From assembly GCA_021775315.1 (NCBI GenBank), contig JAJFIC010000111.1, positions 1 through 36,844 on the forward strand: a stretch of DNA of 36,844 nt. The letters run 5' to 3'. The notes under the pieces are model-generated. The model worked only from the letters and a program-made list of their open reading frames with translations. It ran no database searches and was not told the DNA's origin. How positions within the stretch are numbered: the stretch's first letter is position 1; the number at the start of each line of letters is the position of its first letter. Shown here in pieces: positions 6,548 to 34,876 of this stretch. The translations under genes were made by a program, and so were the position numbers. The DNA is from Paracoccaceae bacterium (GTDB lineage: Bacteria > Pseudomonadota > Alphaproteobacteria > Rhodobacterales > Rhodobacteraceae).

Positions 6548-6548
6548 A

Positions 6549-7082: not shown

Positions 7083-7083
7083 A

Positions 7084-18908: not shown

Positions 18909-19688
18909 ATGCCCAGATTTGCCCTGAAAATAGAATATGACGGCGCACCGTTTTGCGGCTGGCAACGCCAGAAATCGCAACCGAGCGTGCAGCAAACCGT
19001 GGAACAGGCCCTGCGCAAGCTTGAACCCGACATGCCCGGCATTTTTGCCGCCGGGCGCACGGACACAGGCGTTCACGCAACAGGTCAGGTGGCGCATTGC
19101 GAAATGGCGCGCGACTGGTCACCGTTTCGCCTGTCCGAGGCGCTGAACCATCACCTAAAACCCGCACCCGTGGCGATCCTGCAAGTCGCCGCTGCACCGC
19201 CGGATTTTCATGCGAGGTTTTCCGCCCTCGGGCGACGCTATCTGTTTCGCCTGCAAGCGCGACGTGCCCCCCTGACCCATGACAAAGGATATGTCTGGCG
19301 GGTCGGCCGTCCTTTGGACCTTAACGCCATGCAACAGGCCGCCAGCCATTTGATCGGCAAGCATGATTTCACCACCTTCCGCTCAACGCATTGTCAGGCA
19401 ACCTCGCCGCTAAAAACCCTCGATCAGATCACGATCACCGCCCATGTCATCCCGCATGGCACCGAATATCGGTTTGACATCCGGGCGCGTTCGTTTTTGC
19501 ATAATCAAGTGCGCAGCATTGTTGGTTCGTTAGAGCATGTCGGCGCTGGTTCTTGGCAGCCTGACGATATGAAAACCGCGCTTGAGGCCCGCAATCGCGC
19601 CGCTTGCGGCACGGTCTGCCCGCCCTACGGCCTTTATCTGGCGGGGGTGGACTATGCCGTTGATCCCTTTGCGAACGCGGCGGCCTAA
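18909..19688 (+). CDS. truA: tRNA pseudouridine(38-40) synthase TruA
   Basis: A 259-residue TruA, which isomerises uridines 38-40 in the anticodon arm of tRNAs. The catalytic aspartate is Asp52 in [15 protein letters not shown]. The N-terminal [14 protein letters not shown], the central [16 protein letters not shown] and the C-terminal [17 protein letters not shown] are all family hallmarks. The ATG at 18909 is chosen because the homologous N-terminus (M-x-RFAL-x-IEYDG) begins there, although the frame is open for 195 bases upstream. The length is normal. In many related genomes truA follows def and fmt; here those are not adjacent. Confidence 0.96.
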
Positions 19689-19753
19689 AGTGTTAATGCC
19701 GCGTTAGGAGTTTGTTAATAAACGATTTTAATGGGGTAACAGGATACCGAAAA

Positions 19754-19771
19754 TGTTTCGCGCGCGAAACA
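19754..19771. other. 18-bp perfect palindrome with parS-like half-sites
   Basis: TGTTTCGCG followed directly by its reverse complement CGCGAAACA. It lies in the 167-base gap between the convergent stops of truA and the DUF1185 gene, where no promoter is expected. The outer half-sites TGTTTC/GAAACA are those of the chromosomal ParB site TGTTTCACGTGAAACA, but the spacing is 2 bp longer. The inner 16 bases also fit GTT-N4-GC-N4-AAC, which I recall as the RepABC partition-site consensus. Function is unproven. Confidence 0.5.
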
Positions 19772-19855
19772 AATTCCGGCTAAGTCCTTGATCTTTGTCC
19801 TACGCCTCAAAACCGCCACACACCTGCGGTCCCGCTTAGGTTAACAGCCCACGTT

Positions 19856-20437
19856 CTAACGCAGCCCGTCCTGCCCAATCACATCTTCAACCCCAAGTCC
19901 ACCCATCCGGGCGTGGATACGGCCGCCCTTGCTCATGGCCAGCGCGAACAACAACTCGCCCGCCTTTGGCCCATCCGGCACACCCACTTCCATCGCATCA
20001 AAATGGCTGCGGACGTAGGCGGCATTAATATGGCCCAGCGGAATGTCGATGCGCGTACCGACCCCGCCGATTTTCATCGCACTTGGCACAATCGCCCGCG
20101 CCTCGCCCAGACGGGCGCGCATGGCATAGCCCCCCGGCACGTGCCACAGCGCGGTATGTTCCAGCTCGCCACCTTCACCGACCAGCCCGGCTTTGCCGTA
20201 ACCGTCAATGCCATCCACCCCGCCCAAGGCTTCAATCAGATGATCCGTCATCATCAGGCCCAGCGGTTTCAGATCGTCCATCGCCGATTGCAAATCCTCG
20301 ACATAGCCGCCCGCCATCGGGTTGCTGACCAACGCCACCATCGCCGCGCGTTGCCGCACATTTTTACCAACAGGGCCGCCATCATGGTGAATATCTTCGA
20401 TAAACAGCATGGTTTTACGCAATTTGAAGTCTGGCAT
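19856..20437 (-). CDS. DUF1185 'amino acid synthesis' family protein
   Basis: A 193-residue protein of the DUF1185 family, often labelled amino-acid synthesis protein from structural-genomics work, with no established reaction. Recognisable blocks are IEDIHHDGGPVGKNVRQRAAMVALVSNPMAGG (residues 13-44, here given as a span), GYGKAGLVGEGGELEHTALWH, and IDIPLGHINAAYVRSHFD. It has no signal peptide or membrane helix. It is the last gene of the molybdenum-hydroxylase/Hnr operon, and its start overlaps the end of the UPF0280 gene by 23 bases. It is therefore translated with it. The glycine-rich GEGGELEH segment may bind a ligand. Its constant company with Hnr-like and UPF0280 genes suggests a step, or an accessory function, in the same pathway. 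Confidence 0.87.
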   Translation of the reverse strand: MPDFKLRKTMLFIEDIHHDGGPVGKNVRQRAAMVALVSNPMAGGYVEDLQSAMDDLKPLGLMMTDHLIEALGGVDGIDGYGKAGLVGEGGELEHTALWHVPGGYAMRARLGEARAIVPSAMKIGGVGTRIDIPLGHINAAYVRSHFDAMEVGVPDGPKAGELLFALAMSKGGRIHARMGGLGVEDVIGQDGLR

Positions 20438-21263
20438 CTTTCTCGTTCCTTATTAGTTCGCCCGGGAAGTCCCCGACGGTCATGTTCTGCTCCCCCAAAA
20501 ACAAAGCCGCCGCCGAAATCCGCCCGGCGGCCCGCATCCGTAGGGCCACATCGTGACCCGCAGACAACGCCTTGGCAATCTCGCCATCCGTCAGCGCGCC
20601 AACAGCCACCGTCACCAACCGCCCGCCCAGATCACTGTCTGGCAACAAATCAACCGCCGCCCGGCGCGAAATCACGCCATGTCCCGGCAGATCAACCGCA
20701 TTGGCAATCAGCGTCGCCGCCACATCCGCCGCCGCCGCGTCGCGCGCCACCACGCTGACGGCATCGGCAATACCGAACGAGTGTGACCGCCCCCGCCAGC
20801 CCGAGGTTGCAAGCCCGCGCCCGTTTTGTGCCGCGTTCAATGTCACCGCGCCAAACCCCGGCACGGCGGCGCGCAATTGCTGACCCGACGCAAGATAACA
20901 GGCAATATCACCGCCGTTATTGACATAAGCCCGGCGCAAATCATGCCCGGCCACCAGTGCCGCCAAAACCTCGTCCGCCACCGCGCCGGCAACCGCTGCC
21001 ATGGGCGTGACAAACACCTCAAACGGCGCCACCGCGCGCGCCATGCGCCCCGCAATGACACCCTGTGGCCACTGTGGCCCCAAAGGCGCGCGCAGCAGAT
21101 CAAGCTCGTCCACCAACTCAACCAGCACCGTCTGAAACCGCACCTCAGCGGCAGCCAAAGCCGCCTGCCAATCTCGGCCCCAGACCCGGATAATCAGATC
21201 AATCGGGCCGTGACGCAGATGCAGCCGCCGCCCGTCCAACATATGCGCTTGTGGTTGCTCCAC
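20415..21263 (-). CDS. UPF0280 family protein, ApbE-like
   Basis: A 282-residue UPF0280 protein, a family structurally related to ApbE flavin transferases. Landmarks are GVIAGRMARAVAPFEVFVTPMAAVAGAVADEV in the first half, then the glycine/aspartate block AYVNNGGDIACYL near residue 118 and TSGWRGRSHSFGIADAVSVVA near 158. The latter two parallel the conserved DxGG-D and S/T-G regions of ApbE. The GTG at 21263 directly follows the hnr stop; an ATG at 21242 is an alternative start. ApbE attaches FMN covalently to threonine or serine of target proteins. Since the gene sits immediately after the Hnr-like enzyme, whose characterised homologue is reported (from memory) to hold covalent flavin, a flavinylation role is an attractive inference, not a demonstrated one. 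Confidence 0.86.
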   Translation of the reverse strand: MEQPQAHMLDGRRLHLRHGPIDLIIRVWGRDWQAALAAAEVRFQTVLVELVDELDLLRAPLGPQWPQGVIAGRMARAVAPFEVFVTPMAAVAGAVADEVLAALVAGHDLRRAYVNNGGDIACYLASGQQLRAAVPGFGAVTLNAAQNGRGLATSGWRGRSHSFGIADAVSVVARDAAAADVAATLIANAVDLPGHGVISRRAAVDLLPDSDLGGRLVTVAVGALTDGEIAKALSAGHDVALRMRAAGRISAAALFLGEQNMTVGDFPGELIRNEKDARLQIA

Positions 21264-22739
21264 TTAACGCCGCCGCCAAGGCAGATCGCCCTGTTCCGGC
21301 GCAATGCCGCGCGTATCGCCGCCATATTCCCCACCGTGAAGCAACACATCCTTAACCGAGCGTATCGACCCCATATGTCCGCCCAGCCGTGCATATTCCA
21401 CTTGCGGCATGGTAAACTCCAAGGGCGCGACAATCGCAGGCGTCGGCACATAGCCAAAAGCGTTTTCCGGCATGGCCAGCACGTCCACCATCACCGTAAT
21501 CCCGCCACCGGGCCAGACATAAACCGGCGCACCGCCACAGGTCACCGACGTGTCACGCGCCCTGACCGAACGTGTCAGTTGCACCGGGTTTTCCGTAACC
21601 CCTGAGCGCAATGAGCCACCAGCGCCCCCCATAAACAACACCGAACACAATGCCGGTTCGCAGTTTTCATCGATCAACTGGACCGAGCGCATCAGGTTTT
21701 GCGGCAAATCCATCTTTACCGGTTCCAAAACCGCATCAAGTTCATAATAGGCAAACTGTTCGCCCGTGGTGGACACCATCATCACCCGCAGCCCCGGTCG
21801 CGCGCCCTTTTTGGCGTTCCACGGGCCAAGGATCGACAACGGATCACTGATATCGGTGCCGCCCCAGCCAAGGCCGGGTTCAGCCACTTGAAAATACCGC
21901 CCCGGCGTTGAGCGCCGCCCAAGGATCTTGATGCCGGTGCCTTCCCAGCCCAGAACCTTGCCCGCCTGATGCTCGGAAACCACGCCAGTGATATGGTCAT
22001 CAACCACCACCACCTCGTCCACCAGCCCGTGCCATTGCGACGCGAACATCCCGATCGTGGCCGAGCCGCAACCGACCCGCATCCGCTGTTCCTTATGCCC
22101 ATCGACCTCGGGCGGCTGTCCTGCCTCAACGATGACGGTCGCGCCGTCATCCACCGACATTTCAACCGCTTGCCGATTGCACAATTGCATCAGCGCGTCA
22201 CACGTCACCCGCCCTTCGGACTTGGTGCCACCCGTCAGGTGATCGACCCCGCCAAGCGACAACATCTGGCTGCCATATTCGCTGGTCATCACATGGCCCA
22301 CGGCCTCGTCCCTGACCCGCACAACCGCGCCTTCATGGCCCAGATGCCGGTCGGTGTCGATTTTGACTTTAGCGCCGCAATAGGAAAAAATCGCCTCGGT
22401 CACGACCGTGATCATGTCAACGCCGTCGATCTGCTGGCTGACGATGAAAGGCGCGGGTTTGTAATCGGGATAGGTGGTGCCGGAACCAATAGCGGTGACA
22501 AATGTCTGGCCATCGTCCACCAGACCACCATCCCAATCCCCCGCCAAAAATGGTTTCACCTGATCGCCTGCGGCAATTCTTGCATTGAGCAAAGTCAGCG
22601 GATCAACCCGGATGATCGCGCCGTTTTCGTTGGCGTAACGGTCGCAAGCCCCGGCCCGCCCTTCGGCCACGTAACACATCACCGGGCAGGCATCGCAGCG
22701 GATTTTTTCACCGGGTTTCGCAGTATCTGATTCAGCCAT
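21264..22739 (-). CDS. hnr: 6-hydroxynicotinate reductase-like iron-sulfur enzyme
   Basis: A 491-residue protein of the family annotated as 6-hydroxynicotinate reductase, the ferredoxin-dependent enzyme of anaerobic nicotinate breakdown that reduces the pyridone ring to 1,4,5,6-tetrahydro-6-oxonicotinate. Cysteines 15, 18, 22 and 32 form CxxCxxxC-x9-C, suited to a 4Fe-4S cluster. The rest is a single long domain with GSGTTYPDYKPAPFIVSQQ (85-103), RVGCGSATIGMFASQWHG (221-238) and glycine-rich MGGAGGSLRSGVTENP (370-385). Thr228 in GSATIG resembles an ApbE flavinylation site (S/G-A-T). The start overlaps the end of the upstream Mo-hydroxylase gene by 8 bases. Ring reduction of some hydroxylated N-heterocycle is the likely role; the true substrate is unknown. 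Confidence 0.85.
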   Translation of the reverse strand: MAESDTAKPGEKIRCDACPVMCYVAEGRAGACDRYANENGAIIRVDPLTLLNARIAAGDQVKPFLAGDWDGGLVDDGQTFVTAIGSGTTYPDYKPAPFIVSQQIDGVDMITVVTEAIFSYCGAKVKIDTDRHLGHEGAVVRVRDEAVGHVMTSEYGSQMLSLGGVDHLTGGTKSEGRVTCDALMQLCNRQAVEMSVDDGATVIVEAGQPPEVDGHKEQRMRVGCGSATIGMFASQWHGLVDEVVVVDDHITGVVSEHQAGKVLGWEGTGIKILGRRSTPGRYFQVAEPGLGWGGTDISDPLSILGPWNAKKGARPGLRVMMVSTTGEQFAYYELDAVLEPVKMDLPQNLMRSVQLIDENCEPALCSVLFMGGAGGSLRSGVTENPVQLTRSVRARDTSVTCGGAPVYVWPGGGITVMVDVLAMPENAFGYVPTPAIVAPLEFTMPQVEYARLGGHMGSIRSVKDVLLHGGEYGGDTRGIAPEQGDLPWRRR

Positions 22740-25398
22740 TTGCAGCCTCTTTTATTGCGTTCAGAACCCGGTAAGGCAGTGCTGGAACCTGCGTCAACCG
22801 TGCGCCGGTTGCGTGTCGGATCGCGTTCAGGATTGCAGGGGCGGTCGGGATCAGAACATGTTCGCCCAGACCGCGCGCCCCAAACGGGCCTTCGGGGTCG
22901 GGCTTTTCTATGAAGATCGAGCGGATCTGCGGCATGTCGCCAATCGTAGGTATCAGGTAATCATGCAAGTTTTCGGTGCGGCCGGGAATATATTCCTCCA
23001 TCAGGGCCATGCCTAATCCTTGGGCGACGCCGCCTTCGACCTGCCCTTCCGCCAGCATCGGGTTGATCGTCCGGCCCAGATCATGTGCTGCAACCAGTTG
23101 GCGGACTTTGACAATGCCAAGGCCAAGGTCAACCGACACCTCGGCCAGATGTGCGCCGAATCCATAGACCGCATAGGGCGAGCCCTGCCCGTTTTCATCG
23201 AGCGGCGAGGTCGGCGGATCATACGTCTCCTCAACCGAAATCGCATAGCCAAGCGGGTCTAATGGCATGTCTGCCACCCGGGTTTTCCAAGCCTCACCAA
23301 CGCCGGAATTTGACAGCTTCGCCCGCAACGCCAGCCCGGCCTTTTGCGCCGCGCGACCGGTAACAAACGTCTGGCGCGAGGCTGAGGTTTTGCCGCAATC
23401 GGGCGTTAGTGCGGTATCAGGGCCGATCAGGGTGATCTCATCCAGCCGGATCCCCGCCGCGTCGGCGAAAATCTGGGCAATCACGGTGTTGGCGCCCTGC
23501 CCGATATCAGTTGCGCCCTGATGCAGCACCACTTGGCCTGATTGTGTCACCCCGGCGCGAATGGTCGACGGGTTCGGCAGGCCGGTATTGCCGCAGCCAT
23601 ACCAGCAGGACGCAACACCAAGGCCGCGTTTCACATTTTTATGCGCCGCGTTCCAGTCTGCCACATCACGCAACCCCTGCGCCCATGCCGGGCGCAGGGC
23701 CGCAAGACATTCGGCAATACCGGTCGAGGCGATCACCTGCCCAAAGGTGGCTTTGTCGCCATCCCTTAGCGCGTTTTTGAAACGAAATTCCAAAGGGTCA
23801 ATGCCGGTGGCGAGCGCCAGATCCTCGTATAACACTTCCTGCGCGATGGCCGCTTGCGGCACACCAAAGCCGCGAAATGCGCCCGAGATGGGACCGTTTG
23901 TATGCACCGCGCGGGCCTCAGCATCATAATTTGGCGTACGATACGGCCCAGAGGCATGCACCGGCACCCGCCCGGCCACGGTCGGGCCCCAACTGGCATA
24001 GGCCCCGGTGTTGAAATCGCCGCGATACCAAAGGGCGGTCACATTACCATCGGCGTCGCAACCGGCGCGGGCCAGCGCGGTTGACGGGTGCCGTTTGGTC
24101 GTGGACATCATGCTTTCAGCGCGTGAATACACCATCCGGCAGGGTCGCCCGGTGACCATCGCCGCCAGCCCGATCAAAGGTTGCAGCGATACATCAAGTT
24201 TGGAGCCGAATCCGCCGCCCGTGGCTGACGGAATGATCCGCATTTTATCGCGTGGCAGGCCCAGAACTTTGGCAGTTTCTTCAAGATCCATCACCGGGGC
24301 CTGTGTGCAGGCCTGCACTACAAGCGTGTCGCCCTCCATCCATGCGATCCCGGCCTCGGGTTCGATATAGGCGTGTTCGACATAAGCGCTTTGCACCGAA
24401 ACCTCAGCAGTGAATTCAGCGGCTTTCAGGGCTTTTTCAGCATTGCCACAGCGGACGCGGCCAGTGGTCAACACATTGCCGGGGCGGTGGTCATGCAGTT
24501 GCGGGGCATTTGGTTTGAGGGCCGCAGCGGTTTCAAGGCTATGGGGAAGTTCCTGCCATGTGACCGGGAAATCCTGCGGTATCATTGCATGCACGGCGTC
24601 AGGTTCGCCGACCACCAGCGCCACTGCCTCGCCCCGGAACCGGGTGTGGTTTTCTGCCAGCGCCGGTTGATCGACGAAGGGCGGAATGGTGCCAAAACAA
24701 TTGATGCCCGGAATGTCAGCGGCGGTTAGTACGGCCACAATACCGGGATGGGCGGCCTGCCACCCTGCCAGATCACCAAGGGTGAACAAGGCGTGAAAAT
24801 AGGGCGACCGGATGGCGCGCACCAGCAAAGTCCCGGCGCGATTGATGTCTGCGCCAAACGCTTCGGTCCCGGCGACTTTGGTGACACCATCCAAACGCTC
24901 AACCGCCGCGCCGACCGCTTGGCCGATGGGTGCCTGCACCTGATCAGGCAGCGGATCATTGGCGTGCATCACCGCCGCGATGATCTTGGTGTACCCGGTG
25001 CAACGGCAAAGGACGCCGCCAAGAGCGTCTTTAACCTGCCGCTCGGTCGGATGCGGCGCGTGCGCCAGCAAGGCGGTCGCGACCATCAGCATGCCGGGGG
25101 TGCAGATACCGCATTGCGCCGCGCCGTATCGCAGAAAGTGGCGTTTTAAGGTGGTGTGATTGTCCTCAACCAACCCCTCAACCGTGGTCACCTCTGCTGT
25201 ACTGGCCTGCGCCAGACTGGTCAAACAGGCACAGACCGGCGCGCCATCCAGCAGCACGGTGCAGGCGCCACAATCCCCGGCGTCACAACCGACTTTGGTA
25301 CCCGTAAGGCCAATGTCATCGCGCAGTACGTCGCTTAGCCGTCGGCCCATGGGGGCTGTGACTTGGTGGGTTTTGCCGTTAACAGTCAGGTTGGTCAT
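22732..25398 (-). CDS. xanthine dehydrogenase-family molybdenum hydroxylase, 2Fe-2S and molybdopterin domains fused
   Basis: An 888-residue fusion. Residues 1-150 are the two 2Fe-2S domains: the plant-type cluster with Cys38, 43, 46 and 58, and the second with Cys96, 99, 131 and 133 (CGICTPGM and CRCTGY). The rest is the molybdopterin-cytosine-dinucleotide-binding large subunit, with GGGFGSKLD, AFRGFGVPQAAIAQE, GATDIGQGANT and the catalytic glutamate in GARGLGEH (Glu846). Order 2Fe-2S then Mo without an inserted FAD domain is that of the Desulfovibrio aldehyde oxidoreductase. Here, however, a separate FAD subunit gene precedes it in an ATGA overlap, so the enzyme is probably a two-polypeptide hydroxylase that can feed NAD or another acceptor. 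It would hydroxylate a carbon next to ring nitrogen or oxidise an aldehyde; gene context favours the former. Confidence 0.92.
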   Translation of the reverse strand: MTNLTVNGKTHQVTAPMGRRLSDVLRDDIGLTGTKVGCDAGDCGACTVLLDGAPVCACLTSLAQASTAEVTTVEGLVEDNHTTLKRHFLRYGAAQCGICTPGMLMVATALLAHAPHPTERQVKDALGGVLCRCTGYTKIIAAVMHANDPLPDQVQAPIGQAVGAAVERLDGVTKVAGTEAFGADINRAGTLLVRAIRSPYFHALFTLGDLAGWQAAHPGIVAVLTAADIPGINCFGTIPPFVDQPALAENHTRFRGEAVALVVGEPDAVHAMIPQDFPVTWQELPHSLETAAALKPNAPQLHDHRPGNVLTTGRVRCGNAEKALKAAEFTAEVSVQSAYVEHAYIEPEAGIAWMEGDTLVVQACTQAPVMDLEETAKVLGLPRDKMRIIPSATGGGFGSKLDVSLQPLIGLAAMVTGRPCRMVYSRAESMMSTTKRHPSTALARAGCDADGNVTALWYRGDFNTGAYASWGPTVAGRVPVHASGPYRTPNYDAEARAVHTNGPISGAFRGFGVPQAAIAQEVLYEDLALATGIDPLEFRFKNALRDGDKATFGQVIASTGIAECLAALRPAWAQGLRDVADWNAAHKNVKRGLGVASCWYGCGNTGLPNPSTIRAGVTQSGQVVLHQGATDIGQGANTVIAQIFADAAGIRLDEITLIGPDTALTPDCGKTSASRQTFVTGRAAQKAGLALRAKLSNSGVGEAWKTRVADMPLDPLGYAISVEETYDPPTSPLDENGQGSPYAVYGFGAHLAEVSVDLGLGIVKVRQLVAAHDLGRTINPMLAEGQVEGGVAQGLGMALMEEYIPGRTENLHDYLIPTIGDMPQIRSIFIEKPDPEGPFGARGLGEHVLIPTAPAILNAIRHATGARLTQVPALPYRVLNAIKEAANG

Positions 25399-26240
25399 GC
25401 CACACCCGCCTGTGCAATCGCTTGATTGAGCAGTCGCGCAACGGCGTGACGGCGGTAGGCCGCGTCGGCCCTGATGTCATCTATCGGCGAAAGACGCTGC
25501 GAGATGTCGGCCTGCATTGCGTCCTGCCAAGTATCCGGTGCGTTGACGGATTGGCCGGTCAACGCGGCTTCCAAACCGGGCAAGCGTTGCGCCACAGGGC
25601 TGCAGGCCCCGACGGCGATTGCGGCTTTTGTGATTTTGTCACCTGACAGTTCCAACCGGACCGCCACCATGGCGATGGAAATCACGAGGTATTCCCGCGC
25701 CCCAAGTTTGACAAAGGCGGACTGGCCGCGACAAGCAGTATCCGGGATATGTATTGCCGAGACGATTTCGCCTTGGCCAAGGGCCGTCTGGCGCACGCCT
25801 GTCAGAAATGATGTCAGCGGCAGGCGGCGGGTGCCGGTTTGCGCGGCAAGTTCAACCTCGGCCTCCAGCACCAGCAGAGGCGGCACACCGTCCGCGGCGG
25901 GTGAGGCGTTGCACAGGTTGCCAGCCACCGTGCCGGCGTTTTGGATTTGGAGCGAGCCTACCTCGCGTGCGGCTTGTTTCAGCGCGTCAAAACCGGGCGG
26001 AAGGTCGGCTTGCGCCACCTCGGACCAGCGGGTCGTTGCGCCAATACGCCAGCCCTGATCGGTTTTTGTGATGCCGGACAGCGCGTCTATTGCAGTCAGG
26101 TCCAGCGTTTCGGCGGGCAGATCGCGGCCTTGCTGGGCGGGATACACATCGGTGCCCCCGGCCAGCACATGAACATCCGGGCGAGCGGATATCTGCAAAG
26201 CCTGATCCAGCGTATCGGGGCGATGATAGGTCATGGGCAT
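25395..26240 (-). CDS. FAD-binding subunit of molybdenum hydroxylase (CoxM/XdhB-like)
   Basis: A 281-residue subunit carrying FAD between the 2Fe-2S clusters and the final acceptor. The pyrophosphate-binding motif AGGTD is at residues 27-31, and the second FAD motif reads GTVAGNLCNASPAADG near residue 105. The C-terminal CO-dehydrogenase flavoprotein domain includes FVKLGAREYLVISIAMVAVRL. The start at 26240 (MPMTYHRPDT) is chosen over a longer in-frame extension because GAGCGG precedes it and the family begins with this Y-x-RP segment. The longer form would run over the operator. It is the first gene of the leftward operon and overlaps the hydroxylase gene by 4 bases. A palindromic operator lies 23 bases upstream. 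Confidence 0.92.
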   Translation of the reverse strand: MPMTYHRPDTLDQALQISARPDVHVLAGGTDVYPAQQGRDLPAETLDLTAIDALSGITKTDQGWRIGATTRWSEVAQADLPPGFDALKQAAREVGSLQIQNAGTVAGNLCNASPAADGVPPLLVLEAEVELAAQTGTRRLPLTSFLTGVRQTALGQGEIVSAIHIPDTACRGQSAFVKLGAREYLVISIAMVAVRLELSGDKITKAAIAVGACSPVAQRLPGLEAALTGQSVNAPDTWQDAMQADISQRLSPIDDIRADAAYRRHAVARLLNQAIAQAGVA

Positions 26241-26262
26241 GGTCCGCTCGTGGTAAAATTCA

Positions 26263-26274
26263 TTCGTATACAAA
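26263..26274. promoter_or_regulatory. putative GntR-type operator upstream of the Mo-hydroxylase operon
   Basis: TTCGTATACAAA, one base off a perfect palindrome. It lies 23 bases before the FAD-subunit start and within the divergent promoter region shared with the MarR gene. Extended to ATTCGTATACAAAC, it matches 13 of 14 bases of the site at 34665-34678 upstream of hyuA. TTGTATACAA-like palindromes are typical of FCD-family GntR regulators, and one is encoded at 26883-27545. Confidence 0.65.
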
Positions 26275-26332
26275 CGGATTTTGCGGGGAAGGTTCTTTAC
26301 TGTCAATTCATTTTCCGTCACCTTTGTTGGTG

Positions 26333-26776
26333 ATGACAAATTCAAGCCCCGATAAGGATCAGGATCTGAAACCTTACCATCTGGACAGCCAGGTCGGGTT
26401 CATTCTGCGCCGGGCCAGCCAGCGGCATCTGTCGATCTTTTCTGAGGCGGTCACTGAATTGACGGCGACGCAATTTGCGGTGCTGGCCAAGCTTTGCGAA
26501 CGCGGCACACTTTCCCAGAACGCATTGGGGCGGGAAACCGCCATGGATGCGGCCACAATCAAGGGTGTGGTGGATCGTTTGGTGATACGCAACCTGCTGA
26601 CAACAAAGCGGGATCAGTTCGACAAGCGGCGCACCAATGTTGATCTTAGCCCGATGGGGCGCGCGTTGTTTGCGCGCTTGGAAAGTCAGGCGAAAGCGAT
26701 CACCGAACAGACGCTGGCGCCTTTGTCGACAGCGGAACAGGCGGTGTTTCTGGAATTGCTGGGTAAGCTGGTTTGA
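26333..26776 (+). CDS. MarR family transcriptional regulator
   Basis: A 147-residue winged-helix regulator. The dimerisation N-terminus YHLDSQVGFILRRASQRHLS is followed by the HTH (LTATQFAVLAKLCERGTLSQNALGRETAMDAATIKGVVDRLV) and the wing with RDQFDKRRTNVDLSPMGRAL. The DQFDKRR wing is the MarR hallmark. The N-terminal and recognition-helix pattern reminds me of NicR-like repressors of nicotinate catabolism, an inference from memory only. It is transcribed away from the FAD subunit gene, with 92 bases between the two starts. It is therefore the natural local repressor of the hydroxylase operon, probably answering to substrate or a hydroxylated intermediate. A short hairpin with a T-rich run follows the stop. 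Confidence 0.92.
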   Translation: MTNSSPDKDQDLKPYHLDSQVGFILRRASQRHLSIFSEAVTELTATQFAVLAKLCERGTLSQNALGRETAMDAATIKGVVDRLVIRNLLTTKRDQFDKRRTNVDLSPMGRALFARLESQAKAITEQTLAPLSTAEQAVFLELLGKLV

Positions 26777-26790
26777 TTTAGGGCGGCGGA

Positions 26791-26812
26791 GGCCCTGCGG
26801 GCCATTTCTTTT
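26791..26812 (+). terminator. rho-independent terminator after the MarR gene
   Basis: GGCCC, TGC loop, GGGCC, then ATTTCTTTT. It lies 14 bases after the MarR stop. A second small hairpin, GCCCC-TTC-GGGGC, follows at 26814-26826. Confidence 0.7.
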
Positions 26813-26841
26813 AGCCCCTTCGGGGCGTGCGTGCGCTGCGC

Positions 26842-26871
26842 GGCGAGTATTTTTGGAACGCTGATAGGCAA
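26842..26871 (+). repeat. recurrent hairpin-and-tail element, copy 3 (tail)
   Basis: GGCGAGTATTTTTGGAACG then CTGATAGG, preceded by two small GC hairpins at 26791-26826. It resembles the tails at 16165-16190 and, in reverse, 18711-18738. It sits in the convergent gap between the MarR and GntR genes. Confidence 0.5.
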
Positions 26872-26882
26872 GTGCAGGTGTT

Positions 26883-27545
26883 TCAGGATTTCAGCAGGCT
26901 GAGCACGTCAAGCAGGGTGTCGCTGGCTATTTCGGCATGTCGGCGCATGGCTTGTCTGGCATCATCAGCGCGGCCTTCGGTGATGGCGTTCAGGATTTCT
27001 GCGTGTTCTGAACTGGCAGCCGGTTGTCCGGTGGGTCTGAGGCCTTCCTGGGTTCGAAAATACGACACCAGACGCACCCCGGTCAGGTCCAGTTCCCGTT
27101 GCAACACGCTGTTATTGCAGCATTCAAATACTGCGAGGTGGAAGGCGAGGTTCAGGTCGTAGGCGTTTGACGTGCCGTTTTGAGGTGCTGTGAAACTTGC
27201 GTCATAGGCTATTGCGGCGTCTTTCAATGCCGCCAATTGCGGCCCGGTTGCCCGGCGGGCTGCGTGATAGGCGGCGGCGCCTTCCAGTTCTGAATGAAGC
27301 TCGATCAATTCGATCAGTTCCGCCAGTTCCAGTCGCGCCACCCGCGCCCCGGCGCGCGCGCGTTTTTCCACCACTCCGTTGGCTTCGAGTTGCAGGATCG
27401 CCTCGCGGATCGGGGTTTTTGAGACGTCGAAATCGCGCCCAAGGGCGGCCTCGTCGATGACATCGCCCGGGCGCAAATGGCCCTGCACGATTTGGCGCAT
27501 GATAAAGGCGTGGATGTCGGATTTATGGGCAGGCATGGCGTCCAT
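26883..27545 (-). CDS. GntR family transcriptional regulator, FCD subfamily
   Basis: About 220 residues. The N-terminal winged helix is classic GntR: IMRQIVQGHLRPGDVIDEAALGRDFDVSKTPIREAILQLEANGVVEK with the recognition helix in SKTPIREAI. The C-terminal FCD ligand domain carries AYDLNLAFHLAVFECCNN, the histidine in SSEHAEILNAI and RADDARQAMRRHAE, which together supply the usual Asp/His metal-binding set. FCD regulators commonly sense carboxylic acids. The start at 27545 is a choice among several; 27536 is equally possible. An imperfect half-operator (TATACGAAC) lies at 27566-27574, suggesting autoregulation. It is the best candidate to bind the TTTGTATACAAA sites at 26263-26274 and 34666-34677. 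Confidence 0.9.
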   Translation of the reverse strand: MDAMPAHKSDIHAFIMRQIVQGHLRPGDVIDEAALGRDFDVSKTPIREAILQLEANGVVEKRARAGARVARLELAELIELIELHSELEGAAAYHAARRATGPQLAALKDAAIAYDASFTAPQNGTSNAYDLNLAFHLAVFECCNNSVLQRELDLTGVRLVSYFRTQEGLRPTGQPAASSEHAEILNAITEGRADDARQAMRRHAEIASDTLLDVLSLLKS

Positions 27546-27561
27546 ATATTTTAAGTTCGCG

Positions 27562-27574
27562 CAAATATACGAAC
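27562..27574. promoter_or_regulatory. possible weak GntR autoregulatory site
   Basis: CAAATATACGAAC lies 17 bases upstream of the GntR start. The right half, TATACGAAC, differs by one base from the TATACAAAC of the two stronger sites; the left half does not match. Confidence 0.3.
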
Positions 27575-27621
27575 AGCACGCCAAAGGTGCAACCGATGCC
27601 TTTCAGTCAAGCGCAATTGGG

Positions 27622-29058
27622 TCAGGGCAGCACTTTGCCGGGGTTCATGATATTGTCAGGATCGAGCGCCGCTTTGATCGCGCGCATGACCATCAGCGCG
27701 CCTGTGTCTTTGCGCCGCTGCATCGAGCCGAGTTTTGAGATGCCGATGCCGTGTTCGGCGGAAAAAGAACCGTTGAGTTCGTCAACCACGTCCTCGACCA
27801 TTGTGTATATCTCGGTCTGCAAGGCCTTGTCGGCGGGGGCCGGGTTTTCGGGATCGACCCACAGGCTGTAATGCAGGTTGCCATCCCCCAGATGGGCGAT
27901 TTCAATCAGTTCAGCCTTTGGTGCGATCTTGGCCAGGCGGCCGTTGGCCATTTCAAGGAATTCAGCCACGCGATCAAGCGGCACGGCCACATCGGTGGTG
28001 ATCGGCACGCCAAGATGGTTGGCCACCTCAAAGGCCATTTCGCGCTGGCGCCACATTTCGCTGCGCTGTGCGGCATTCTGGGCGATGGTGGCATCCAGCA
28101 CGGCGCCGTCTTCCATCAGTTCGCCCAGCGTTTCTGTCAGCACCTCTTGCACCGGGATTGTGCCGTCGTCATTGGGCCGCGCGTCGCGTTCAGCGGTGGC
28201 TGCAACCTCGATCAGAATACCGACTTTGGCCGGTTCGGCAAAAGGCATGGGCGCGTTGGGATCGATCTGTTTGAGATGACGAAAATAGCCTTCTGGCATG
28301 TATTCAAAGGCTTCGACACCGCCTCCGCTGGCGGACTGAAGCTTGTGCAACAAGGTCAGCGCGCCTGAGATATCCGGCACAGATACCATGGCGGTTGCAT
28401 AGGCTTTGGGTTTTGGGAACAGTTTCACCACCGCCGCTGTGATGACGCCAAGCGTGCCTTCGGCCCCGATGAACAAATCCTTAAGATCGTAACCGGTGTT
28501 GTCTTTGTGCAATTCCGACATCAGGTTGACGATTGTACCGTCTGCCGTGACCACCTCAAGCCCCAGACAAAGGGCGCGGGTGTTGCCGTAGCGCACGACG
28601 TTTGAGCCACCTGCGTTGGTCGAAAGATTGCCGCCGACCATGCAGGACCCTCGCGCGCCAAACAGCAACGGGTATACCAGATCATGGGCTTCAACCGCTT
28701 CGTGCAGATTGGCAAGGATCACCCCCGCCTCGACCTTGGCGACGCGGCTTTTGACGTTGATTTCGCGGATGGCGTTCATGCGGTCGGTTGACAGGATGAT
28801 CTTGTCGCCGGCATCACCGACAAAGCCGCCACCGGCCAGACCGGTATTGCCTGACAAGGGCACGACCGGGGTTTTGGTTTCGCTGGCAAGCGCCAGAATT
28901 TGCGATACTTCTGCGGTAGATGCGGGGCGGACCACGGCCAGCGACCGGCCTGCATATTCGCCGGTGACGTCATGGTCGTATTTTTGCCGTTCGTCCTGTT
29001 CTGAAAGGCAATACTGATCGCCGACGATGGATTTCAATTTGTCGACGATCTGGGACAT
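27622..29058 (-). CDS. FAD-linked oxidase, D-2-hydroxyglutarate/D-lactate dehydrogenase-like
   Basis: A 478-residue flavoenzyme of the GlcD/Dld/D2HGDH group. The N-terminal FAD-binding type 4 domain shows TPVVPLSGNTGLAGGG and GNLSTNAGGSNVVRYGNTR. The C-terminal FAD-oxidase domain carries the metal-binding histidines in IAHLGDGNLHYSLW and EHGIG near the end. These enzymes oxidise D-2-hydroxyacids and hand electrons to quinone, cytochrome or electron-transfer flavoprotein. D-2-hydroxyglutarate is a typical substrate of the closest-looking group, but the substrate is inferred. The start at 29058 is supported by AGAGG upstream and by the family N-terminus. It lies 76 bases downstream of argE and 76 bases upstream of the GntR gene on the same strand. 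Confidence 0.9.
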   Translation of the reverse strand: MSQIVDKLKSIVGDQYCLSEQDERQKYDHDVTGEYAGRSLAVVRPASTAEVSQILALASETKTPVVPLSGNTGLAGGGFVGDAGDKIILSTDRMNAIREINVKSRVAKVEAGVILANLHEAVEAHDLVYPLLFGARGSCMVGGNLSTNAGGSNVVRYGNTRALCLGLEVVTADGTIVNLMSELHKDNTGYDLKDLFIGAEGTLGVITAAVVKLFPKPKAYATAMVSVPDISGALTLLHKLQSASGGGVEAFEYMPEGYFRHLKQIDPNAPMPFAEPAKVGILIEVAATAERDARPNDDGTIPVQEVLTETLGELMEDGAVLDATIAQNAAQRSEMWRQREMAFEVANHLGVPITTDVAVPLDRVAEFLEMANGRLAKIAPKAELIEIAHLGDGNLHYSLWVDPENPAPADKALQTEIYTMVEDVVDELNGSFSAEHGIGISKLGSMQRRKDTGALMVMRAIKAALDPDNIMNPGKVLP

Positions 29059-29134
29059 GGGGGGGCCTCTTGTTGGTTGATGCACGATCAGGCTAGCCAA
29101 GGGTTGCGGGTTTGGCCAGCGGCATTTTTCGCCG

Positions 29135-30289: not shown

Positions 30290-30399
30290 TGTGTGTCTTT
30301 CGCAGTTGATCGCCCGAGGCTAGTCGCGCGGTTTGCTGCGCGCAAGGTCGGTGCTGTTGGTGCTTGCCAAAAACCTGCTTGGCGGGCACATCTGTCGGC

Positions 30400-30915: not shown

Positions 30916-30917
30916 TC

Positions 30918-32567
30918 CTAGGCTTTGACGCGCCCCAGACGGATATCTTCGGCCAGCAGTTTCGGGTCGCGTTTGGCGGGGTCGCCATAGCCACCACCAC
31001 CGGGGGTTTTGACGCGCACCCTATCGCCGGGGGCCAGATCAATGTCTTGTTCCTTGGACAGATGTTCCGGCACGTGGCGATGGCCTGATTGCCAGACTTC
31101 GACCTCGTTCACCGCGCCGTCTTGTCCGCCCAGCGCGCCTTGCGGGCCGAACCGCCCGTGATCCATCACAAAGCTGGCTTTGGCGTTGCCGCGCAGCAAT
31201 TCCAGTTCGTAATCCAGACCAAAACCGCCGCGATGTTCGCCTGCCCCGCCGGAATTTTCGCGCAGGGCGTAGCGGTGGTAAAGCACGGGAAATGCCTGTT
31301 CCATAATCTCAACCGGCGGTGCTTTGGAAATGCCGATGGTGGAGCAGCCATTGGTCAGGCCGTCATGCTGCGCGTTGCCGCCATAGCCGCCGCCGGACAG
31401 TTGGTACATCACGAAATTCCGGTCCTTTTCAGGATCATACCCGCCAAGCGCGAAATTGCCGCTGGTGCCTGCGGGGGCGGCGGTGACGCGCTCTGGCAGG
31501 GCGTGCACGAGGGCGGCAAAAACCGCCTCGGCGATGCGCTGGCTGACTTCGGCGGCGCAACCTGACACGGGGCGCGGGTAATGCGCGTCAAGGAAGGTGT
31601 CGGTCGGGCGAATGACATTGAGCGGCTCAAACGCCCCGGCGGAAATCGGCACTTCGGGGAAAATGTGGCGCATGGCGAGGTAGACCGAGCTGAGCGTGGT
31701 GGCCAGCACCGAATTCATCGGCCCCAGACAGGGCGGGCTGGAGCCAGCGAAATCAAAGGTCAGTGTGGTGTCGGCCTTGGTGATCGTCAGATTGATCACC
31801 AGCGGTTCATTCACCACGCCGTCGCTGTCGACATAGGCCACACCGTGATAGGTGCCGTCGTCAATTTCCGAAATCCGGGCGCGCATCTGATCGGCGGCGC
31901 GGCTGCGCAAATCCGCAATGGCGGCACTGACTGTGTCATCGCCATAGCGATCCAGCAATTGGTTCAGCCGATCCTCGCCCACTTTAAGGGCGGCGGCCTG
32001 CGCTTTGACATCGCCGATGCGTTGGTCAGCGACGCGGATGTTGGAACAGATGATGGCATAAATCTCGGTATCCAGAACGCCTTGTTTGAACAAGCGCACG
32101 GGCGGCAGGCGCAGCCCTTCTTGCTCAACAGCGGTGGCTGAGGCGGAAAAGCCGCCGGGGACTGACCCGCCTGTGTCGGGCCAATGGCCGGTATTGGACA
32201 GCCAGCAGTAAATCTGCCCATTGCGATAAAATGGCCGGGCAAAACGCACATCCATCAGGTGGGTGCCGCCAAGGTAAGGGTCGTTGACGATATAGATGTC
32301 ATCAGGCTGCGGGGCCGCGACCGTGCCTTCGGCGATCATTTCGATCAGGGTGCGGGTGGAATATTGCATCGTGCCGACAAAAACCGGCAAACCGCCCGCG
32401 CCTTGGGCAATCAATGCGCCATCTTCGGCGGAATATATCCCGTCGGAGCGATCATTGGCTTCGGCGATCACGGGCGAAAATGCGGCGCGTGAAAAGGTCA
32501 GGTCCATTTCATCGCAGACCTGTTGCAGCCCGGCCTGAATGACGGCCAAAGTGATCGGGTCAATCAT
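30918..32567 (-). CDS. hyuB: hydantoinase/oxoprolinase B subunit
   Basis: A 549-residue HyuB family subunit of ATP-dependent N-methylhydantoinase, 5-oxoprolinase and the related acetone/acetophenone carboxylases. The N-terminal block is DPITLAVIQAGLQQVCDEMD, followed by the family signature IVNDPYLGGTHLMDV near residue 90. The glycine-rich C-terminus PGGGGYGDPAKRDP is typical. The start overlaps the hyuA stop in an ATGA, so the two subunits are made together. HyuAB enzymes open cyclic amides or lactams with ATP hydrolysis, or phosphorylate and carboxylate ketones; the gene context favours lactam or hydantoin opening. Confidence 0.93.
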   Translation of the reverse strand: MIDPITLAVIQAGLQQVCDEMDLTFSRAAFSPVIAEANDRSDGIYSAEDGALIAQGAGGLPVFVGTMQYSTRTLIEMIAEGTVAAPQPDDIYIVNDPYLGGTHLMDVRFARPFYRNGQIYCWLSNTGHWPDTGGSVPGGFSASATAVEQEGLRLPPVRLFKQGVLDTEIYAIICSNIRVADQRIGDVKAQAAALKVGEDRLNQLLDRYGDDTVSAAIADLRSRAADQMRARISEIDDGTYHGVAYVDSDGVVNEPLVINLTITKADTTLTFDFAGSSPPCLGPMNSVLATTLSSVYLAMRHIFPEVPISAGAFEPLNVIRPTDTFLDAHYPRPVSGCAAEVSQRIAEAVFAALVHALPERVTAAPAGTSGNFALGGYDPEKDRNFVMYQLSGGGYGGNAQHDGLTNGCSTIGISKAPPVEIMEQAFPVLYHRYALRENSGGAGEHRGGFGLDYELELLRGNAKASFVMDHGRFGPQGALGGQDGAVNEVEVWQSGHRHVPEHLSKEQDIDLAPGDRVRVKTPGGGGYGDPAKRDPKLLAEDIRLGRVKA

Positions 32568-34624
32568 TGGATGGCCCCCAGACTTATCAGAATATTGCCC
32601 TCACCGTCCCCATGGGCGGTGTCACCCGGTTCGATCAGCGTGGTGGTGTCCATCTGTTCGATATTCGCGGGGCCCTGGATTTCAGCGTCAAGCGGCAGGT
32701 GATCGCGCCAGTAGATCGGCGTGTCATGCCATTGGCCGTCAAACAGCACGCGGCGGGTGTCGGTTTGGGCATCGGTGACGGTGTTTTTGCGGCCCGTCGG
32801 GTCGATCAGCTTTGACAGGTCAAGCGGCGGTCGCGCGCCGATGACCGAGGTGTTGACGTTGACCAGATTGACCCGGATGTCATCCAGCTCGACCTGAAAA
32901 CGGTCAAAATAAGCAGCCTCGAACAACCGTTGCAGCGTGGCGCGGTCCGGGGTCGGGCTGTCGAGCGCGACCCTAAGCAGATGGGTCTGGCCGATGAATT
33001 GCATATCAACGGAAAAAAGGTGGCGAATACCGGTTAGGGTGATCGGTTCCTTGTCAATCAAGGCGCTGCCGGTGGCGATTTGTTCGGCGAAAGCGGCGTG
33101 AATTTCGCCCTCAATCAGGGTATCAAGCGGGCGGTTGACGGTGCGCACGAAATCATGGCGCAGGTCGGCCACGACACAGCCAAGCGCGTTGGTGATACCG
33201 GGGCGACAGGGCACCAGCACCTTCGGCACGCCAAGTTCACGCGCCAATGCGCTGGCATGCAGCGGCCCCGCACCGCCAAAAGCGAACAGGGCAAAATCAC
33301 GCGGATCGGCCCCAAGCGAGATCGAAACCATACGGATCGCGCCGGCCATTTTGGCGTTGGCGATACGCAAAACCGCCTCGGCGGCGGCGGTGGCATCTAG
33401 GCCGAGGGGCTGGCCGAGCTTTTCGGTGAAAATCGCGCTGACGCGGGCCTTCATCTGGTCCGGGCTTTCGCCGCCGGATTTAACCGGAGGGTTCAGGCGA
33501 CCCAGCAACAGATTGGCGTCTGAAATTGTCGGCGTGGTGCCGCCTTTGCCGTAACAGATCGGGCCGGGATCGGCACCCGCACTTTGAGGCCCGACCTCAA
33601 GCAGCCCCGCCGCGTTGACATGTGCGATTGAGCCGCCACCAGCACCAACGGTGCGCACATCGACCATCGGCACATGGATCGGCATGGCGTATTCCAGCTC
33701 GATCTCGTGGCTGACAGCGGGCTGTGCGTCACGGATCAGCGCCACATCGGTTGAGGTGCCGCCCATATCATAGGTCAAAAGGTTGGGATATCCGGCGCGT
33801 TGGCCGGTATAGGCTGCGGCCATCACGCCAGAGGCCGGGCCGGACATCACGGTTTTCGCCGCTTCGCGCGCCACGCTCTGGGCTGAGACCATGCCGCCAT
33901 TGCCGTTCATCACCAAGACGTCGTGTTTATAACCTTTGGCGGCCAGTTCGACCGCCAGTTTATCAACGTAACGCTGCAACAAAGGCTGGACCGAGGCGTT
34001 GACGGCGGCTGTGACGCCGCGTTCAAACTCGCGACTTTCAGACAGCAGCGCGTGGCCCATGGTGATGTACTCGTTCGGCCAATTTTCAGCGATAATCTCT
34101 GCGGCGCGGATTTCATGGTCGGGATTGGCGTAAGCGTGCAGAAAATGGATGACGACGCTTTCACAACCCATGTCGCGCAAGGTCCGGGCGGCATCACGCA
34201 CCGCCTGTTCGTCAAGCTTGGAGTGGACAGTGCCATTGGCCAACATACGCTCGCCGACCTCAAGACGCAGATCGCGCGGGATGATCGGCTGGAATTCCCC
34301 AAACATGCCGTAGGCCTGCGGCCTTGTACGGCGACCGAGCTCCAACACATCGCGGAACCCCTGCGTGGTGATCAGCCCGGTTTTACAAAGCTTGCGTTCC
34401 AGCACGGCGTTGGTGGTTGTGGTGGTGCCATGCACGATCAGGGACACATTCGGCAGATCGGCCTTGGCATCCGCCAGCGCGTTCAGCACACCGAAAGCCT
34501 GATTATCCAGCGTCGAGGGGGTTTTGGCCAAGCGGACCTGCCCGTCAGGCGACAGCAAAACCAGATCGGTGAACGTACCGCCGACATCAACGCCGATAAT
34601 TGATCCTGTGTCTGTTGCGGTCAT
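32564..34624 (-). CDS. hyuA: hydantoinase/oxoprolinase A subunit
   Basis: A 686-residue HyuA subunit with the acetate/sugar-kinase/Hsp70/actin ATPase fold. The N-terminal phosphate-binding segment is IIGVDVGGTFTDLVLLSPDG; VHGTTTTTNAVLERK, TYDMGGTSTDVALIRD and RTVGAGGGSIAHVNAAG further along are all family hallmarks. The start at 34624 (MTATDTG) puts the phosphate-binding strand near residue 8, as expected, so the upstream in-frame start is discarded. It is the first gene of the hyuAB operon and has a perfect palindromic operator about 42 bases upstream. Subtype (N-methylhydantoinase, 5-oxoprolinase or other) cannot be set from sequence inspection. Confidence 0.93.
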   Translation of the reverse strand: MTATDTGSIIGVDVGGTFTDLVLLSPDGQVRLAKTPSTLDNQAFGVLNALADAKADLPNVSLIVHGTTTTTNAVLERKLCKTGLITTQGFRDVLELGRRTRPQAYGMFGEFQPIIPRDLRLEVGERMLANGTVHSKLDEQAVRDAARTLRDMGCESVVIHFLHAYANPDHEIRAAEIIAENWPNEYITMGHALLSESREFERGVTAAVNASVQPLLQRYVDKLAVELAAKGYKHDVLVMNGNGGMVSAQSVAREAAKTVMSGPASGVMAAAYTGQRAGYPNLLTYDMGGTSTDVALIRDAQPAVSHEIELEYAMPIHVPMVDVRTVGAGGGSIAHVNAAGLLEVGPQSAGADPGPICYGKGGTTPTISDANLLLGRLNPPVKSGGESPDQMKARVSAIFTEKLGQPLGLDATAAAEAVLRIANAKMAGAIRMVSISLGADPRDFALFAFGGAGPLHASALARELGVPKVLVPCRPGITNALGCVVADLRHDFVRTVNRPLDTLIEGEIHAAFAEQIATGSALIDKEPITLTGIRHLFSVDMQFIGQTHLLRVALDSPTPDRATLQRLFEAAYFDRFQVELDDIRVNLVNVNTSVIGARPPLDLSKLIDPTGRKNTVTDAQTDTRRVLFDGQWHDTPIYWRDHLPLDAEIQGPANIEQMDTTTLIEPGDTAHGDGEGNILISLGAIQ

Positions 34625-34876
34625 AGAATGTACATCCCCCGGGCTGAAACATTGCCGAATTATCATTTGTATACAAACTAATTTATGCGGGTCCAGTGAT
34701 TCTGATTATGCGGGTGCGGATTGGGTGTTTTGAAGCCAATAGCTGTGGAATACATGAAGGGCCGATATTTTGGCACCCGCGCCAGCCGTCGCTTGCCATG
34801 AACAATAAACTGGTGCAGCCGCCAAACTTGTTTCAAGATCGACCCAACTGTGGGTTTTTGGCTAGAGGTTTTGCGA
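34625..34876. other. intergenic region upstream of hyuA and the low-GC orphan
   Basis: The 252 bases hold the hyuA promoter and the operator at 34666-34677. They also carry a 10-base direct repeat TTATGCGGGT (34683-34692 and 34706-34715). A 68-codon open frame here on the minus strand has no recognisable family and no good ribosome binding site, so I do not call it a gene. Confidence 0.5.
34666..34677. promoter_or_regulatory. putative GntR-type operator upstream of hyuAB
   Basis: TTTGTATACAAA, a perfect 12-bp palindrome, 42 bases before the hyuA start. It is nearly identical to the site at 26263-26274 ahead of the Mo-hydroxylase operon. Confidence 0.68.

Follow-up and report, generated by a model that had tools for sequence, protein, structure and literature searches.

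How might a bacterium that appears equipped to reduce 6-hydroxynicotinate open the resulting ring, when the enzyme that does so in the classical route has no match in its genome? The question is raised by a five-gene operon in a Paracoccaceae bacterium, formed by the five minus-strand open reading frames (ORFs) at positions 19856-26240 of a 36,844-nt stretch of contig JAJFIC010000111.1 (hereafter, the window). The operon encodes a molybdenum (Mo) hydroxylase, made up of an FAD subunit and a separate fused 2Fe-2S/Mo subunit, together with a homologue of 6-hydroxynicotinate reductase (Hnr), a UPF0280 protein and an AA_synth (DUF1185) protein. The answer that we consider probable is an aerobic nicotinate regulon, combining the Mo hydroxylase, Hnr with UPF0280, an ATP-driven HyuAB pair in the place of enamidase, shared MarR control, and AA_synth as a helper.

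The FAD and fused Fe-S/Mo subunits would convert nicotinate to 6-hydroxynicotinate, which Hnr, matured by the ApbE-like UPF0280, would reduce to 1,4,5,6-tetrahydro-6-oxonicotinate (THON). HyuAB would then open the six-membered THON lactam at the expense of ATP, taking over from the enamidase that hydrolyses THON in the classical route, and AA_synth would probably assist after ring opening, a role at which we can only guess. A BpsR-like MarR repressor, sensing 6-hydroxynicotinate or a close relative, would use one palindrome to control the five-gene operon as well as hyuAB. We infer all of the enzymatic steps, the binding of MarR to the palindrome, the identity of its ligand and the flavin transfer; the gene arrangement, the shared palindrome, the co-occurrence of genes, the lack of an enamidase match and the swaps of ring openers are read directly from the DNA.

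A missing enamidase and a HyuAB pair

Enamidase converts THON to ammonia and 2-formylglutarate (PMC7356986). An amidohydrolase of the Sulfitobacter pontiacus cluster (L116) matches the enamidase of Eubacterium barkeri (PDB 2vun) at 1e-106. Used as a query, it found no match at E <= 0.001 in the whole genome of the window, which is listed as 100% complete; the same query matches 21 of 289 alphaproteobacterial genomes. The absence of enamidase that the initial annotation had remarked upon thus holds genome-wide. That annotation missed, however, a HyuA/HyuB pair lying outside the coordinates it considered, as well as the operator that this pair shares with the operon. HyuA (32564..34624, minus strand), the predicted ATP-binding subunit of an ATP-dependent lactamase/hydantoinase, matches PF01968, PF05378 and PDB entries 7hk5 and 6yra; HyuB (30918..32567, minus strand), the predicted metal-site subunit, matches PF02538 (E=3.8e-158) and overlaps HyuA by 4 bases. 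The hyuA ORF reaches 34666, but the ATG at 34624, downstream of the candidate operator at 34663-34680, is the likelier start.

The window HyuA carries the motifs DVGGTFTD, DMGGT and GADPGP. Across 42 HyuA proteins, DxGGTFTD is found in 41 and DMGGT-type and GxxPGP motifs in all 42, as expected for the ATP motifs of an ATP-dependent lactamase. The DRSDG, THLMD and GHWPD motifs of the window HyuB follow patterns kept in 37/38, 38/38 and 38/38 HyuB proteins, and these would provide the Asp-His-Asp-His site, as judged by motif and without alignment to CapB. Roles for the HyuA ATP motifs and HyuB metal ligands are described for caprolactamase (PMC8453981). The pair resembles the caprolactamase/5-oxoprolinase/N-methylhydantoinase group (PMC8453981 and PMC11033972) in its HyuA/HyuB organization, its DxGGTFTD, DMGGT and GxxPGP motifs and its Asp-His-Asp-His site. 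It differs from caprolactamase in its link to Hnr, in its proposed substrate, THON, and in the score of HyuB against the caprolactamase model NF050157 (CapB), 306 bits, far below the cut-off of 1000.

It is also conceivable that HyuAB, though part of the regulon, processes a lactam formed later or on a side branch, or acts as a carboxylase, while another, unrecognised hydrolase opens THON. The Hyu family includes carboxylases as well as several lactamases, and although HyuAB shows the ATP and metal motifs of the lactamases, carboxylases of the family share them (PMC8453981). The related OplAB, on the other hand, accepts a six-membered ring, opening delta-valerolactam with ATP (PMC11033972). 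We regard a side role for HyuAB as unlikely, and the distribution of ring openers across genomes, described below, also bears on it.

HyuAB and the operon share a candidate palindromic operator. A TTTGTATACGAA-type site lies between marR and the operon (26260..26277; 0 mismatches; matrix score 30.0, a training site), and a second copy lies upstream of hyuA (34663..34680; 0 mismatches; matrix score 26.6, outside the training); these are the only two mismatch-free places for the pattern TTYGTATACRAAYRA in the window. Related loci were drawn from several sources. A scan of named genomes with the Hnr-like protein found at least 587 relatives and supplied the 80 best loci for comparison, and 43 loci were fetched from a class sample (an even draw of 289 alphaproteobacterial genomes) and 17 from a phylum sample of 299; 26 plasmid records also matched. 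A site resembling TTTGTATACGAA, with 9 or more of 12 matches, occurs in 29 of 32 MarR-FAD intergenic regions, the commonest 7-mers of which recur in up to 24 of the 32; shuffling brings this down to 7 or fewer. With a weight matrix trained on those 29 sites, the next separate place in the window scores 10.2, and 20 base shuffles of the window gave no site at or above 20.

Sites scoring at least 20 stand upstream of the FAD-subunit gene in 84/123 cases (training sites included), of ferredoxin-NADP reductase in 25/29, of hyuA in 20/43, of a transporter binding protein in 10/63, of enamidase in 7/33, of Hnr in 10/147 and of LivF in 2/267, in loci many of which are near relatives. None was found upstream of UPF0280 (0/141), the Mo subunit (0/125), AA_synth (0/154), hyuB (0/39) or NicB (0/7). 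Among hyuA upstream regions that had no part in training (48 fetched, 7 untestable), a score of at least 18 is reached in 25 of the 35 testable named genomes, and of at least 20 in 23, with the rest of each region at or below 9.2; three of six testable class genomes also reach 18.

Taken together, HyuAB and the operator that it shares with the operon could explain why enamidase is missing. We found no report of HyuAB in nicotinate breakdown in the open-licence literature, beyond which most subscription papers lie, and the replacement of enamidase by HyuAB looks new. If true, it would assign a specific role to a hydantoinase/oxoprolinase subfamily that is widespread and is recorded as N-methylhydantoinase or acetophenone carboxylase, and would explain nicotinate ring opening in many marine and rhizobial bacteria without enamidase. 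The candidate operator, in turn, could be used for mapping the regulon.

Enamidase and HyuB across Hnr-encoding genomes

The class sample was searched with Hnr, enamidase, HyuB, UPF0280 and AA_synth, at limits of E <= 1e-60 for enamidase, 1e-180 for HyuB and E <= 1e-20 for UPF0280. Hnr matched 46 genomes, or 44 once G095 and G181 (E ~7e-4) are set aside. Enamidase at 64% identity or above occurs in 18 of the 289 genomes, 17 of them with Hnr (the exception is G082), and HyuB at 65% or above in 26, each of which also has Hnr; a looser limit brought in a 27th, G064, whose HyuB (68%) is truncated. The 44 Hnr-encoding genomes accordingly comprise 17 with enamidase only, 27 with HyuB only, none with both and none with neither, a division that argues against a side role for HyuAB. 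HyuB at this identity is found in none of the 245 class genomes lacking Hnr.

A second set was taken from the 80 named loci, 39 of which have long flanks without Hyu. In all 38 of the genomes searched, HyuB lies elsewhere in the genome, at 79-84% identity. The phylum sample yielded 21 Hnr-encoding genomes, 17 of them new: 7 with enamidase only, 8 with HyuB only and 2 with both. Over all 99 Hnr-encoding genomes, enamidase alone is present in 24, HyuB alone in 64, both in 11 and neither in none, and within single loci with enough flank the two stand together in 0 of 124. The exclusivity is therefore strong, but not absolute; an absolute form of it is disproved by the 11 genomes with both.

The two ring openers also appear to have exchanged places repeatedly. 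When the enamidase/Hyu label is mapped onto an IQ-TREE phylogeny of 52 Hnr proteins, 10 changes of label are needed, at least 5 of them forced by well supported branches; restricted to the 44 class genomes, 7 are needed. G210 (enamidase) and G104 (Hyu) are sisters on this tree.

Several results weigh against HyuAB as the substitute for enamidase. The split without overlap among the 44 genomes depends on identity cuts chosen after the lists had been viewed, and on E limits under which truncated or weaker copies of enamidase or HyuB could be missed, as the HyuB of G064 first was. Seven class genomes without Hnr carry HyuB at 57-63%, and the Hyu-type genomes G104 and G064 carry distant enamidase-like proteins (41% and 37%). 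In the second set, 9 of the 38 genomes also have enamidase, at 60-85%. Counting these 38 with the 17 new phylum-sample genomes, at least one of the two is always present in the 55, but both are present in 11, as would also suit a side role for HyuAB. In eight Mesorhizobium with both, a 60-63% enamidase has a pair of AA_synth genes next to it while Hnr is absent for ~10 kb around, and G295 holds both a HyuAB-type Hnr cluster (L013) and a second complete Hnr cluster of the enamidase type (L171). The operator evidence also has its exceptions: the pattern TTYGTATACRAAYRA with up to 3 mismatches has 7 matches in the window, equalled by 9/100 shuffles and so not clearly above chance, and no operator site was found upstream of hyuA in 10/35 named and 3/6 class regions. 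Finally, the tree holds four independent pairs on well supported branches, and although all 4 point in the expected direction, so few pairs cannot bring a tree-corrected sign test to significance.

A different substitute for enamidase could be sought in the operon itself, where AA_synth sits, a protein that pairs with enamidase or enamidase-like genes in other genomes. Its distribution, however, is the opposite of that expected for a replacement: AA_synth (at least 43% identity) is present in 17/17 enamidase genomes and was not found in 11/27 of the Hyu type. Further, L001, the closest relative among the best 80 loci, has no AA_synth between UPF0280 and truA. A ring-opening role for AA_synth is accordingly disfavoured, and we consider it very improbable.

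The operon as a probable nicotinate cluster

All five ORFs of the operon are intact on inspection. The initial annotation described three junctions at which neighbours overlap, by 4, 8 and 23 bases, and a fourth at which they directly abut, which the ORF coordinates confirm, and concluded that the genes form one transcription unit. The spacing stands; co-transcription is plausible, given a sigma70-like promoter (TTGACA-17-CAAAAT; 26278..26306, minus strand) directly upstream of the operon, the best match within 19600-35000, and a terminator-like hairpin after AA_synth (19754..19771, minus strand), both of them consensus matches only. The grouping itself recurs widely. In loci with sufficient flank, and with the queried genes alone considered, the five-gene order is kept in 57/66 named, 17/34 class-sample, 3/8 plasmid and 9/16 phylum-sample loci, and the next queried gene after Hnr is UPF0280 in 66/66, 34/34, 7/8 and 15/16, respectively. 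This recurrence across locus sets rules out chance neighbours, and the suspicion that the five genes might rarely be found together, which the initial annotation had raised as a test of its own proposal, is not borne out.

The FAD subunit (25395..26240, minus strand; PF00941 and PF03450) starts with an ATG at 26240, and its stop overlaps by 4 bases the gene for the fused 2Fe-2S/molybdopterin subunit (22732..25398, minus strand; Fer2, Fer2_2 and MoCoBD_1/2), together a probable nicotinate dehydrogenase. Pfam and NCBIfam back the calls for the Mo hydroxylase subunits, PF06684 and UPF0280. The best PDB match of the Mo subunit is an aldehyde oxidoreductase (1dgj), with nicotinate dehydrogenase 3hrd lower (E=4e-73); its GGGFG motif is present in 121/121 full homologues, and an over-strict regular expression for the catalytic-Glu region matched 4/121. 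The Hnr homologue (21264..22739, minus strand) matched no Pfam or NCBIfam model and had no convincing solved relative in the PDB (best E 0.32). Its orthologue is named 6-hydroxynicotinate reductase in 17 of the 26 plasmid records, is hypothetical in 3 and falls where there is no annotation in 6. Residues C15, C18, C22 and C32 of Hnr, a pattern of iron-sulfur type, are invariant in a 48-sequence alignment. In the CGSAT stretch at Hnr residues 224-228 the first four positions are invariant and the T is nearly so; as a guess, this stretch might carry a covalent flavin. Ferredoxin-NADP reductase is the likely electron source.

A Mo hydroxylase and Hnr stand in one cluster here, as in the aerobic nicotinate (THON) clusters described before. 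PMC3511419 places an Hnr that shares 42% identity with the E. barkeri protein in a cluster conserved among Azorhizobium caulinodans and other putative nicotinate degraders; it reports the aerobic cluster from Azorhizobium, Bradyrhizobium, Rhodopseudomonas (R. palustris) and strain SG-6C, the last of which grows on nicotinate with transient 6-hydroxynicotinate. The cluster of A. caulinodans ORS571, Bradyrhizobium and SG-6C shares with the window a Mo hydroxylase, Hnr, conserved proteins of unknown function and aerobic alphaproteobacterial hosts. Its first three pathway steps are covered there, hence by inference enamidase, whereas in the window no enamidase was found and HyuAB shares the operator. 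An ATP-binding cassette (ABC) transporter lies nearby in relatives, but none such was seen in the window. The fermentation of E. barkeri likewise proceeds by nicotinate hydroxylation, Hnr and a THON intermediate; there, enamidase opens THON, while the window has the fused Fe-S/Mo subunit, the UPF0280 partner and HyuAB (as related in PMC3511419 and PMC7356986).

In some relatives the Mo hydroxylase is itself exchanged. Plasmids of Neorhizobium and Comamonadaceae carry NicAB-type subunits ~8 kb from Hnr, with no FAD/Fe-S-Mo pair within the fetched 25 kb, and six genomes of one genus (g234) carry them beside Hnr; the names nicA and nicB are those of the Neorhizobium record, NCBIfam giving none above its cut-off. 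That the Mo hydroxylase can give way to a dehydrogenase of the nicotinate type speaks for nicotinate as the substrate.

The divergent MarR gene (26333..26776, plus strand) encodes a BpsR-like protein that is probably a 6-hydroxynicotinate sensor. Its best PDB match is 2nnn, an unnamed probable regulator; it also matches 6pcp at E=3.5e-27, an entry that itself says MarR family only and that we take to be BpsR. Bordetella BpsR is inactivated by 6-hydroxynicotinate, with which Tyr15, His23, Arg26 and His32 make contact (PMC6837509). In a locally ungapped alignment the window protein has Y15, F23, R26 and H32, three of the four at the same spacing. Among 110 MarR proteins of the fetched loci (at least 36% identity), Y15 and R26 are invariant and H32 is kept in 92, while position 23 is mostly F (84 proteins), otherwise H (17) or Y (9). 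Besides F at position 23, the window protein differs from BpsR in its proposed targets, the Hnr/Hyu branch rather than nicC/nicE (PMC6837509). The ligand is likely a ring carboxylate, most simply 6-hydroxynicotinate.

Some of these results pull away from a nicotinate regulon. The window MarR has F where BpsR has H; H32 is kept in 11/21 MarR proteins from enamidase loci; and MarR relatives, PcaV among them, bind ring carboxylates of other kinds. The fetched flanks of L114, L118 and L197 show no Mo hydroxylase near Hnr. The operon could instead serve some other, uncharacterised N-heterocycle, hydroxylated next to the nitrogen and reduced by the Hnr-like protein, with HyuAB or nothing opening the ring. 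The broad matches of the Mo subunit across the xanthine oxidase family, the lack of a curated model for Hnr and the F at position 23 of MarR would allow this account. It fits poorly, however, with the NicAB-type enzymes that replace the Mo hydroxylase in some clusters, with the swap of a THON-acting enamidase (PMC7356986) for HyuAB around close Hnr relatives such as the sisters G210 and G104, and with the four 6-hydroxynicotinate ligand residues, two of which are invariant and a third common in the MarR proteins. We judge another heterocycle to be quite unlikely. By gene content and homology, the operon is the nicotinate to 6-hydroxynicotinate to THON cluster of aerobic Alphaproteobacteria already reported (PMC3511419). 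Mo hydroxylation followed by Hnr-type reduction, as initially proposed, is still the best reading; the label of an uncharacterised N-heterocycle pathway was overstated, given that reported cluster, the NicAB substitution and the BpsR-like MarR.

UPF0280, AA_synth and flanking genes

UPF0280 (20415..21263, minus strand; GTG start; NF003322 and PRK04334) is a predicted Hnr maturation or flavin-transfer factor. It occurs in 43/44 Hnr-encoding and 0/245 other class genomes (E <= 1e-20), and in the 44th, G064, a partial copy is cut by the contig end. UPF0280 is thus tied to Hnr throughout the sample, which suggests a role in its maturation, probably as a flavin-maturation factor. In 21 UPF0280 sequences NNGGD is invariant and ATSG nearly so; these NNGGD and ATSG...AD..AT-like motifs echo those of the ApbE flavin transferase, and Pfam ApbE (PF02424) weakly matches 7/21 members (best E 0.0023). 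The window protein, unlike ApbE, has no PF02424 match of its own, the Pfam gathering score not being reached, and a PDB search with UPF0280 gave no convincing solved relative.

The window AA_synth (19856..20437, minus strand; PF06684, DUF1185; E=9.7e-63; PDB 3byq and 2qtp) exceeds the PF06684 gathering score, at 211 against 27 bits. By similarity to two references, AA_synth falls into two paralogues, A1 and A2, the window form being A1. With assignments taken from search identities, and verified for copies in fetched loci, A2 is present in 17/17 enamidase-type versus 2/27 Hyu-type class genomes, and A1 in 13/17 versus 16/27. PMC2954203 describes PF06684 as having a chorismate-mutase-like fold and no known reaction, so that the initial remark to this effect still applies; the family's name, amino acid synthesis, was given because of this fold and of neighbours including branched-chain transporters. 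Such transporters also flank Hnr, with LivM in 56/66 named loci. As a guess, AA_synth might act in enamine deamination or in the handling of 2-formylglutarate after ring opening.

A broader picture is possible, if on balance doubtful. Nicotinate breakdown in bacteria would have two interchangeable ring openers, an ATP-free enamidase with AA_synth-A2 and an ATP-driven HyuAB common in marine and plant-associated lineages, that have replaced one another many times among Alphaproteobacteria; UPF0280 would be a dedicated flavin transferase, making Hnr a new covalently flavinylated reductase; and PF06684 would comprise enzymes that process enamines or 2-formylglutarate rather than synthesize amino acids. 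The proposed regulon links UPF0280 and PF06684, both uncharacterised, with a single pathway in which their roles can be tested.

AA_synth also occurs apart from Hnr. The Mesorhizobium loci L172-L179 (e.g., L172:1234-11996) hold an island in which a MarR gene and both AA_synth paralogues, A1 and A2, accompany a 60-63% enamidase. Next to the island of L172, Pfam identifies a nucleoside ABC transporter of the Bmp type, a pair of nucleoside hydrolases and an amidase of the isochorismatase family, and the whole perhaps feeds nicotinamide riboside into the nicotinate route; the best PDB matches of the isochorismatase-family protein include RutB and carbamoylsarcosine amidase, with nicotinamidases ranking lower, which makes a nicotinamidase only a possible reading of it. 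In L180, L181 and L182, AA_synth adjoins a 41-44% enamidase-like gene with no Hnr in the fetched stretch (G210, the genome of L180, encodes Hnr at another place), and this pairing hints that a sister pathway exists. A conserved protein of ~460 residues lies beside the LIV-type transporter in three loci (L111:14900-16273, L113:4737-6200 and L117:6143-7552), and its L111 and L113 copies have no Pfam match. In L161 (genome G028), the Hnr gene lies in two reading frames, possibly through a frameshift or an assembly error.

Three further genes were considered as core members and rejected: in the flanks fetched for the 80 named loci, neither the GntR gene (26883-27584) nor the ArgE-like hydrolase (29135-30289) recurs, and the GlcD-like oxidase (27622-29100) does so only in L002. 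The locus closest to the window among the best 80 (L001:3249-4040) shares its truA/ycjX neighbours. Of ten further window ORFs searched against Pfam, six had no match. An ORF cut by the window end (36328-36843, plus strand) is cytochrome P450-like by eye, as a fragment without Pfam match, and at 5369-7557 (plus strand) ribBA-like and lumazine synthase riboflavin genes, followed by nusB, form an ordinary housekeeping cluster.

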